Positions 3,143 to 5,494 of a stretch of DNA of 39,889 bases are shown here, piece after piece. Positions within the stretch are counted from its first letter, which is position 1. Each line of letters opens with the position of its first letter. The DNA is taken from assembly GCA_028279045.1 (NCBI GenBank), contig JANQSZ010000010.1, forward strand, positions 1 through 39,889. Direction: 5' to 3'. The notes beneath the pieces are model-generated. The model worked only from the letters and a program-made list of their open reading frames with translations, did no database searches and was not told the origin of the DNA. Made by a program: the position numbers and the translations under genes. Source of the stretch: Candidatus Nanoarchaeia archaeon. Lineage in GTDB: Archaea; Nanobdellota; Nanobdellia; Woesearchaeales; UBA10216.

Positions 3143-3163
3143 TTGCGACCAACCCGTCATACA

Positions 3164-4045
3164 ATGGAACTTGCTCATGTTGTTGAGAATGGAAATCTAG
3201 TATCTGCCGAGCAGTGGAAACAGCACATCGAATCGCTACACGTTCCTGTAAACAAAAAATCCAGAAAAGATTCAGCACAACTAATCCTTGACTCATTAAC
3301 TAAAGCAGTACAACGCCGTGTTAAAAAGAAATCTGCAATTCTCCTTTCCGGCGGTTTAGACAGCACTATGATCGCTGCTATCGCACCTCTTCCAAGCGTT
3401 GTTGTCGGTACAGAAACCTCACCAGACCTTGCTATGGCCAGAAAAGCAGCGAAGCACTACGGCATCGACTTAATTGAACTCATCCTCACAAAAGAGTCCA
3501 TAACTGATTACGTCGCAAGAACCGCAACAATAATCAATGAAACAGAAGACATGGTTAAACTCGACATCGGCGCAACTGGCCTCGCTGCACTAGAAACCGC
3601 AAAGCAAAACAATTTCAAAAGTGTCTTCACCGGCTTGGGTGCAGAAGAAATTTTTGCAGGATACCAAAGACACACAACCGCATCTGACATTAACGAAGAA
3701 TGCTGGCGCGGATTGGCAGATGATTTGTGGCGCCGCGATTTTTCCCGCGACATCCCAATCGCCAATCATGTCGGCATTGAAGCACTCACTCCATTCCTCG
3801 ATCAAGATCTCATCAAAGTAGCGATGTCCATTCCTGGCAGCTACAAATTAAACGACCATTACAGAAAAGTTATTCTGCGCGAAGCAGCGCTCCTTGCAAA
3901 AGTTCCAGAGGAGTTTGCATGGCGAAGAAAATTAGCAATGCAGTATGGCTCCCGGGTCAATCCTTTATTCACAAAAGTTGCCTCTGCTCAAGGACTAAAA
4001 AAGACGGAATTGGTCAAACGCCTCGTCGAAAATAAAAAGGTATAA
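3164..4045 (+). CDS. Asparagine-synthase-like ATP pyrophosphatase
   Basis: The 293-residue protein has the synthetase half of asparagine synthase (N-type ATP pyrophosphatase) but no glutamine amidotransferase domain. The PP-loop SGGLDS is at residues 62-67, and the second signature GLGAEEIFAGYQRH is at about 162-175, with LTPFLDQDLI and WRRKLAMQYGS downstream. Family members adenylate a carboxylate and transfer an amine; here the nitrogen donor would have to be free ammonia or a partner protein, and the substrate is unknown. Start is the leaderless ATG 3164; the frame is open upstream to TTG 3143. C-terminal lysine-rich tail. Confidence 0.8.
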   Translation: MELAHVVENGNLVSAEQWKQHIESLHVPVNKKSRKDSAQLILDSLTKAVQRRVKKKSAILLSGGLDSTMIAAIAPLPSVVVGTETSPDLAMARKAAKHYGIDLIELILTKESITDYVARTATIINETEDMVKLDIGATGLAALETAKQNNFKSVFTGLGAEEIFAGYQRHTTASDINEECWRGLADDLWRRDFSRDIPIANHVGIEALTPFLDQDLIKVAMSIPGSYKLNDHYRKVILREAALLAKVPEEFAWRRKLAMQYGSRVNPLFTKVASAQGLKKTELVKRLVENKKV

Positions 4046-4080
4046 GTAGATTTATTTCTCGTTTATGTCAGGTGTTGTAA

Positions 4081-4755
4081 ATGAAATGGCATAGCGCACT
4101 TGGTTTCGCAGAAGATCCCTTTCTTATAGGAGCGATCGCTGGAACAGAAGAGATGCTTGACGACATTACTTATTTCGTCCGCTCCGGTAGCATGATCTTC
4201 ATCGAAGAGCCAAACGGCTGGATGATCCACAAAATTCTCGAACGTTTTAGCGGAAGAAAGAAGGCTATCTTTGTTGATGCAGAAGATCAAAAAGTAATTC
4301 CAATTGAAGAACTTTTGATTGGCAGCAACGGAATAATCGGCCGAGCCCTGAACAAACTCCCGAAAGACATGATGCTATTTGTTGAAAACACACCCATATT
4401 AACAAAACGCAACGCCGAAAAACTCAAGCATTATTATGACAATGGAAACATTCATTCAATAATTTTCTCCGGAACAAGCTACGAAAAAGCAAATCTTCCG
4501 GAGAGTATGCGCGACCGCATCGGTTCCCGTGTATTTTCTCTCCCGCGTTTTACCGAGCAGCTCGCTATCAATTCTGTCCAACACATGCTTGATTCAACAG
4601 TATTCTTCCCCGCACAACTCATTAGAATGGTGCACAAACGTTATTCAGAACCAACAGAATTCTTCGAAATGTGTTCGCGTATTTGCGAGCATACAGTACG
4701 AGCAAAAGCAGAGAAGGTAAATGCAATTCATCTACAGGTGATGCACGCTGAGTGA
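4081..4755 (+). CDS. AAA+ ATPase-like protein with degenerate ATP site
   Basis: 224 residues that align along their length with the next gene product: a W-x-x-x-x-G-F-x-E-x-P start, a core FI..P, KAIF, VIPIEELL, MMLF, IIFSGTSYEKANLP, and a helical C-terminus. The Walker A position (residues 42-50, EEPNGWMIH) has no GKT/S, and the Walker B position (97-103, MMLFVEN) lacks the Asp-Glu pair. It keeps SMRDRIGSR (142-150), which looks like an arginine-finger region that the partner lacks. I infer a non-hydrolysing subunit of a heteromer. SD-like AGGTG lies 8 nt before ATG; TATA-like GTATAAG at about 4040. The last codons overlap the start of the next gene. Confidence 0.7.
   Translation: MKWHSALGFAEDPFLIGAIAGTEEMLDDITYFVRSGSMIFIEEPNGWMIHKILERFSGRKKAIFVDAEDQKVIPIEELLIGSNGIIGRALNKLPKDMMLFVENTPILTKRNAEKLKHYYDNGNIHSIIFSGTSYEKANLPESMRDRIGSRVFSLPRFTEQLAINSVQHMLDSTVFFPAQLIRMVHKRYSEPTEFFEMCSRICEHTVRAKAEKVNAIHLQVMHAE
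4736..4742 (+). promoter_or_regulatory. Strong Shine-Dalgarno in front of a CTG start
   Basis: AGGTGAT is a full seven-base match to the 3' end of archaeal 16S rRNA. It lies inside the end of the first AAA+ gene, five bases before CTG 4748-4750, the only plausible start codon in the frame of the second AAA+ gene. Confidence 0.6.
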
Positions 4756-5494
4756 CTGGTTCAAGATAGCAGGATTCAAGGAAAATCCCCTAACAAGCAA
4801 GCCTCTTGCAGAGGATGCACAAACAAAGGAAACAGAGCAAGTACTCGAATACATCGAGAACAATCAGTGTATTTTCGTCCAGGCAAAATACGGAAGAGGA
4901 AAAACAGCACTACTCAAGAACATCATCAACAAATTTGGCGGTAAACGCAAAATCATTTACTATGCCAACGTTCCAAACGAAGTTATTCCCCTCGACATTC
5001 TAATCAAGCAATCTTCCCGTATCAAGAAATACTTCGGCCACATGCCTCGTGATCTCATTTTACTATACGATGAAGCACAAGACATCAGCCGCGAAAACGC
5101 TGCGGTTGTTGCTGGTTTTTTTAACGCAGGAAACATCCGTGCAATTGTTTTCTTTGGTACAGAGTATCAAAAATCTCATTTCCCTCTACCGCTACGAAAC
5201 TTAATGGCAAAGAACACAATCCAACTTTCAGATTTGAACGACACTCAAGCACTTAAACTCATCAAGAGTCGCGTTGACAATCTCATTTCAGATCAAGCAA
5301 TTAAAGAACTGAACTTCCTTTCCGACGGCAATCCTCGCAGACTACTCGAACTCTGCGAACAAGCTTGCTATCTCTTCATCCACAAAGAAGGCGACAAGAT
5401 TTCTATCGCAGAGGCAGAAAAGATGGCAAAAGAACTCAAACCAAAGCGTTCTGGCGTGTACGACTTAACAGCACTTCACAAATTAGAAAATTAG
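4748..5494 (+). CDS. AAA+ ATPase, ExeA/TniB/Orc-like, probable CTG start
   Basis: 248 residues. Walker A AKYGRGKT at 46-53, Walker B LILLYDEAQ at 103-111, sensor-1 region FFGTEYQ at 135-141 and the sensor-2 motif GNPRR at 194-198, followed by a small helical domain; DEAQ and GNPRR are typical of ExeA/TniB and Orc/Cdc6-type AAA+ proteins. Canonical starts are absent until ATG 5042, which lies after Walker A. CTG 4748 gives MSDWFKIAGFKENP, aligning with MKWHSALGFAEDP of the upstream paralogue, and has a perfect SD 5 nt upstream. Target (DNA, membrane or protein) unknown. Converges on the DRG GTPase with a 4-nt overlap. Confidence 0.72.
   Translation: MSDWFKIAGFKENPLTSKPLAEDAQTKETEQVLEYIENNQCIFVQAKYGRGKTALLKNIINKFGGKRKIIYYANVPNEVIPLDILIKQSSRIKKYFGHMPRDLILLYDEAQDISRENAAVVAGFFNAGNIRAIVFFGTEYQKSHFPLPLRNLMAKNTIQLSDLNDTQALKLIKSRVDNLISDQAIKELNFLSDGNPRRLLELCEQACYLFIHKEGDKISIAEAEKMAKELKPKRSGVYDLTALHKLEN

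Follow-up and report, generated by a model that had tools for sequence, protein, structure and literature searches.

Analysis of the window, the whole 39,889-nucleotide stretch studied here (contig JANQSZ010000010.1 of a Candidatus Nanoarchaeia archaeon), revealed two adjacent genes encoding AAA+ paralogues, A and B. Gene A (positions 4081 to 4755, forward strand) starts with ATG and encodes a protein of 224 amino acids in which the ATP site is missing and an arginine-finger segment is retained. Gene B (4748 to 5494, forward strand) encodes an AAA+ ATPase subunit of 248 amino acids that carries Walker A, Walker B (D-E), and the sensor-2 arginine and has no finger. The two open reading frames lie head to tail on the same strand and share 8 bases. 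Neither frame is interrupted, and the codon-position GC of both resembles that of the neighboring genes. The gene in front of A (3143 to 4045) encodes an asparagine-synthase-like protein of 300 amino acids, whose match to AsnB (TIGR01536, E = 2.6e-36) is confined to the synthetase half, the glutaminase half being absent; it also adjoins the A-B module in several relatives from the same taxonomic family.

Upstream of Walker A, the frame of B contains no ATG, GTG, or TTG, and the listing of open reading frames gives only an internal ATG at 5042. The start of B is probably the overlapping CTG at 4748, since a Shine-Dalgarno-like AGGTGAT (4736 to 4742, forward strand) lies in front of it and the initiator methionine of homologues aligns there. 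Gene callers restricted to ATG, GTG, and TTG would cut B back to 5042 and drop Walker A.

The similar layout of the two proteins, noticed in an earlier sequence-only reading of this DNA, reflects homology: A and B share 22% identity (E = 8e-24) along their length, and a search of the whole genome (1.0 Mb, about 90% complete) identified them as the sole members of the family (E = 5.6e-20). That reading had also assigned Walker A, Walker B, and sensor 2 to B, their loss to A, and the finger to A only, and the alignment gave the same result. In B, Walker A is AKYGRGKT (residues 46 to 53; 4883 to 4906), Walker B is LLYDEA (residues 105 to 110; 5060 to 5077), and sensor 2 is GNPRR (residues 194 to 198, with R197 invariant; 5327 to 5341), all on the forward strand. 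The corresponding columns of A read EPNG----, LFVENT, and SEPTE. The P-loop of A is deleted at EEPNGW (residues 42 to 47; 4204 to 4221, forward strand), where homologues carry GxxGxGKT. At the Walker B position of A (4375 to 4392, forward strand), Asn103 replaces the catalytic glutamate and D102 is changed to glutamate. The arginine-finger segment of A is SMRDRIGSR (residues 142 to 150; 4504 to 4530, forward strand), and B reads PLRNLMAKN opposite this segment. The full AAA+ set is present in the A-B pair but not in A alone: B carries the two Walker motifs and sensor 2, and A carries the finger.

Conservation of the divided site among relatives

Family matches were detected in 41 of 193 genomes of the window's order, mostly as two adjacent genes, in 16 of 19 genomes of its taxonomic family, and in 81 of 371 genomes of a phylum sample, all from the same class and some of them single-gene relatives. 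The named records with family matches belonged almost throughout to Woesearchaeota/Nanoarchaeota. The genome samples were drawn rather than exhaustive, and the sequences came mostly from metagenome-assembled genomes. The conserved pairing that the earlier reading had proposed to look for in archaeal genomes was found: across the class, A and B are always neighbors and form separate paralogue clades. In the tree, A and B are reciprocally monophyletic (support of 0.999 and 0.789, respectively), which indicates that the duplication is old.

Residues were compared in an alignment of 80 distinct A and 79 distinct B homologues. The finger arginine (R146) is present in all 80 A homologues and Walker A (GK/R[TS]) in 77 of the 80. 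The catalytic Walker B glutamate was found in only 5 of 80 and is replaced in the other 75 (by Asn in 58, Asp in 15, and Ser in 1, with E-N in the window), and the sensor-2 arginine is present in 9 of 80. Three residues, Y31, D120, and R146, are invariant among A homologues, and all of them are retained in the window. The B homologues carry Walker A (79/79), D-E (78/78), and the sensor-2 arginine (76/76); at the finger column, arginine occurs in 6 of the 75 that have a letter there (6 of 79), and 69 of the 75 carry another residue. Fisher tests of 80 A versus 79 B sequences gave p values of about 1e-39 for the glutamate split and about 2e-37 for the arginine split, which ignore shared ancestry and so overstate independence. 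The five A homologues with D-E and the six B homologues with arginine at the finger column count as evidence against a strict division. Compensatory pairing, in which a D-E-bearing A would accompany a finger-bearing B, was considered and rejected, with no coupling among the 79 pairs.

The complementary halves proposed from the window extend across the class for the catalytic glutamate, the finger arginine, and mostly the sensor-2 arginine. The part that did not hold is the loss of Walker A: the sequence-only reading had named A homologues with Walker motifs as evidence against itself, and for Walker A such homologues are the rule. Walker A loss was dropped as the defining split for this reason. 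The missing P-loop and ATP pocket of A are a trait of the window lineage, not of the family; the window A is the only complete A without a P-loop among the 80 and lies on a long branch of the tree. Judged from the conserved residues, the general division would be that A binds ATP without a catalytic glutamate and gives the finger, and that B hydrolyzes ATP.

At the loci where a single AAA gene lies beside the gene for the membrane protein T described below, the full site (GxxGxGK[ST], D-E, ERIG, and NPRR) is found in one chain in four of four cases, as subfunctionalization predicts. These cassettes (L128:4190-5828, L130, L144, and L147) consist of the hairpin-tailed membrane protein followed by one complete-site AAA protein. 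Seven single-gene relatives with a C-terminal winged helix (wHTH) likewise carry the complete site in one chain. Proteins of this winged-helix class have 357 to 409 amino acids (L046:7105-8331, L047-L051, and L065:150-1289) and read GLTGSGK[TS], DEF, ERLGNR, and NPRR. The position of the single-gene form in the tree depends on the root, being beside A with midpoint rooting versus beside B with the wHTH outgroup.

Structure models and family assignment

The AF2 models generated from family alignments were confident, with a mean pLDDT of 92.7 for A and 88.7 for B. Foldseek comparison with the PDB revealed ORC1, RFC, and Cdc6 as best matches of A and ORC1, Cdc6, and RFC, together with TnsC, as those of B (probability of 1.00 for ORC1/RFC/Cdc6). 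With a profile of the C-terminal half of A, R146 fell opposite the SRF arginine in DnaA from Aquifex in an ungapped but weak match (E = 0.23). The arginine finger of Escherichia coli DnaA is Arg285 (PMC5742627). The hhalign results for archaeal RFC and for Orc1 pointed to the same region with the residue shifted (R150, or R144 with gaps) and were not adopted for placing the finger. As these alignments disagree, R146 was taken as the exact finger because of its invariance and the DnaA alignment.

Of the relatives first named, ExeA-type ATPases proved near; Orc/Cdc6, together with RFC and TnsC, is a structural neighbor. The nearest named family for the single-gene form is the ExeA/GspA and PEP-CTERM-associated ATPase family (TIGR03015; E = 1.9e-6), with a score of 27.5 bits that is far under the curated cutoff of 324.5 bits. 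The window A and B had no match to TIGR03015 at an E value of 0.01. For Orc1/Cdc6 (TIGR02928), the B-type and single-type relatives scored 20.3 and 15.1 bits versus a cutoff of 181.3, and a search of the window genome with this family led to loci other than A and B. In Pfam, NCBIfam, and PADLOC, the window proteins were below every cutoff, B having weak generic P-loop matches only and A none. The PADLOC matches Nhi, mad8, and AbiO were set aside, as they look like shared P-loop similarity and a defense context is absent.

The upstream membrane protein T and its loss from the window

The sequence-only reading had stated that nothing next to the pair shows its target. This is correct for the window and does not hold for the relatives: 59 of 79 unique pairs have, immediately upstream and in the same orientation, a gene for a surface protein anchored in the membrane, T. 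The other 20 pairs have no upstream T gene, which indicates that T is not obligatory in cis. T has an ectodomain, a single transmembrane helix, and, at its C terminus, a cytosolic hairpin of about 45 amino acids with the consensus NxRKARxxHKKAExxHxxGxxxxAxxxYxxAxxYREKA; a signal peptide is often present. The ectodomain ranges from near zero to more than 2,000 amino acids, and in L071 it contains Ig, PKD, and cadherin-like domains. A profile of the hairpin matched the MIT domains of VPS4B/SKD1 (E = 0.003 to 0.006) and consensus TPRs; in Pfam, the T proteins of relatives stayed below cutoff, with 13.2 bits for MIT (PF04212) versus a gathering cutoff of 30. All 83 hairpin matches in the fetched loci adjoin an AAA gene of the A/B family. 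Strong hairpin matches (E ≤ 1e-9) were present in 19 of 193 genomes of the order, all of them within the 41 with a family match (p = 3e-15 for co-occurrence, before correction for relatedness).

In the 79 pairs, zinc ribbons at the C terminus of A hardly ever occur together with a long tail on B (ribbons only in 19, tail only in 38, both in 1, and neither in 21), which suggests two alternative modes of docking onto T. Ribbon-bearing pairs accompany the largest T proteins (340 to 2303 amino acids, several clipped by contig ends), and the other pairs mostly accompany short ones. The long B tails are mostly basic and finish with short motifs that are specific to a lineage, contain many aromatic and acidic residues, and resemble binding peptides, for example, SYWGEFMGMQK (L099-L104), IRTYEEE (L054/L059/L060), and EYKVFVF (L055/L061).

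Several other features of these loci were recorded. Giant surface proteins of 1,668 to 2,295 amino acids are encoded directly upstream of the pair in L045, L032, L034, L036, and L071 and, where scanned, contain Ig/PKD/cadherin-like or Listeria-Bacteroides repeats. The T proteins of the window's family mostly have a conserved Cys-rich ectodomain (DC..ECR..F.F.C.YD...C.C..G..S.C) that has no Pfam name (L096-L104, L052, and L053). In one family, the pairs are followed by a retropepsin-like gene (RIDTGAS) and a RimK/ATP-grasp-like gene (L058:9795-11320, L062, and related loci). The pairs of another family have a multi-pass antiporter-like gene close by (L065:11554-13269 and L067:5909-7600), and a T gene was not found there.

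In the window's taxonomic family, T is present in 15 of 15 other T-A-B loci fetched and, where the asparagine-synthase-like gene occurs, lies between this gene and A. In the window, the same two genes are 35 bases apart (gap at 4046 to 4080, forward strand), and T is missing from its syntenic place. A profile search of the window genome found no hairpin protein (best E value, 0.07). The candidates for a tail-bearing membrane protein elsewhere in this genome (best E values, 0.07 to 0.25) were rejected, the top one being a secreted TPR protein. Since the genome is about 90% complete, the T gene may lie elsewhere. The tail of B in the window is about 19 amino acids long versus at least 57 in the same-family relatives compared. 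The loss of T from its syntenic place and the short B tail suggest that the window pair is a reduced form of a T-A-B module.

Proposed mechanism, rival explanations, and known systems

These findings make it rather likely that A and B form a heteromeric AAA+ ATPase in which A supplies an arginine finger in trans and which acts on the surface protein T. The trans-finger heteromer is suggested by residue conservation and by precedent (LAP1-Torsin [PMC4358337] and clamp loaders), and the action on T is suggested by genomic linkage and by resemblance to ExeA-type ATPases. An old duplication would have shared the two halves of one complete site between A and B. B would bind and hydrolyze ATP, and A would dock beside it so that R146 (SMRDR146IG) enters the ATP pocket of B. 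In most relatives, A would still bind nucleotide, with poor or no hydrolysis owing to Asn, Asp, or Ser in place of Glu; in the window, A without a P-loop would have only an activator or stator role, as LAP1 has for Torsin. The pair and the upstream-encoded, membrane-anchored T would constitute one module throughout the class. The cytosolic MIT/TPR-like hairpin of T is the likely docking site, which would be engaged by the zinc ribbons of A in some lineages or by the long C-terminal tail of B in others, and ATP turnover may cluster, assemble, or reset T. More tentatively, and with less confidence than in the reading above, we consider it possible that Woesearchaeota/Nanoarchaeota and relatives share a three-part envelope machine, composed of a hairpin-bearing surface or adhesin protein and an obligate A-B ATPase with one site per A-B interface, and that in the window lineage only its motor is left, with an activator that no longer binds ATP.

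The main rival to a reduced functional pair is decay, in which T was lost, selection relaxed, and the P-loop of A disappeared without specialization. This is rather unlikely. In its favor, T was found neither at the syntenic place nor elsewhere in the window genome, the B tail is short, the CTG start of B is weak, and the window A is the sole complete one of 80 to lack the P-loop and has a long branch. However, the two overlapping frames are uninterrupted, their codon-position GC resembles that of the genes around them, A retains Y31, D120, R146, and Asn103, B retains the whole catalytic set, and what A has lost are parts dispensable for a pure activator.

A quite improbable explanation is that A gives no finger and regulates or inhibits B by capping or diluting its homomers, so that B alone is the working oligomer. 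The six B homologues with arginine at the finger column, and the fact that some AAA+ proteins can dispense with a canonical finger, would fit this role; the residue is nevertheless not arginine in 69 of 75 B sequences and is arginine in every A, and the single-gene versions hold the finger in the same chain. Least probable is a function on DNA as an Orc/Cdc6-, TniB-, or TnsC-like initiator or transposition ATPase, with the link to T incidental. The fold neighbors ORC1, Cdc6, RFC, and TnsC and the C-terminal winged helix of the related single-gene class are consistent with such a function, but A and B contain no winged helix or other recognized DNA-binding domain, and the genuine Orc1/Cdc6 of the window genome is encoded at another locus (L165). 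Moreover, no transposase or transposon genes were noticed near the fetched pairs, whose neighbors are annotated only in part, and the commonest neighbor is a membrane protein whose cytosolic tail is specific to these pairs. Gene adjacency is no proof of interaction, and operon inheritance alone could keep the genes together.

The trans-finger heteromer acting on T would place in small archaea, many of them thought to be host-attached, a candidate for split-site AAA+ heteromers, most known examples of which come from eukaryotes or from replication. The duplication behind the system is ancient, the single-gene forms serve as natural controls, and in one lineage the presumed activator has lost the nucleotide pocket. 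The linked surface proteins may contribute to cell contact, and some of them are longer than 2,000 residues and carry Ig-, PKD-, and cadherin-like domains; the cassette therefore gives testable access to DPANN surface proteins from the cytosolic side. If the three-part machine exists, it may control the surface proteins by which the cells hold their hosts. In the papers searched, no DPANN AAA/MIT or surface-protein/AAA system is described. In nanohaloarchaea, giant DPANN surface proteins have a different, VirB4/TraG-type ATPase encoded directly downstream (PMC10266531).

Clamp loaders (RFC and bacterial delta-prime) and ORC share the fold neighborhood of A and B. In clamp loaders, noncatalytic subunits such as delta-prime act on the neighboring site via an arginine finger. 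Unlike clamp loaders and ORC, the A-B system has two subunit types, has a surface protein as its commonest neighbor, and has no known clamp or DNA target. ExeA works with a membrane partner in the assembly of an envelope structure (PMC4098917). In contrast to ExeA and TIGR03015 proteins, A and B are two complementary subunits, and neither is fused to a transmembrane or peptidoglycan-binding part. The T hairpin, whose profile matches MIT (VPS4 and SKD1; SKD1/VPS4B at E = 0.003) and TPR, differs from MIT in being shorter and in lying in the tail of the membrane protein, not on the AAA ATPase.

A close parallel is Torsin, to which LAP1 and LULL1, themselves without nucleotide motifs, supply an arginine finger (PMC4358337). 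In both systems, a subunit with the ATP site lacks a finger, a motif-less partner supplies, or in the case of A would supply, a conserved one, and a membrane protein is, or for A-B would be, part of the machine. Torsin and LAP1 belong to a different AAA clade, and in their case the membrane protein is LAP1, the finger supplier. A and B are plainly paralogous in sequence, and their membrane protein is encoded by a third gene. Complementary loss of ATP-site and finger residues of the LAP1-Torsin kind is present in the paired A and B proteins of this uncultured DPANN archaeon and its relatives, as seen in motifs, alignment, and tree.
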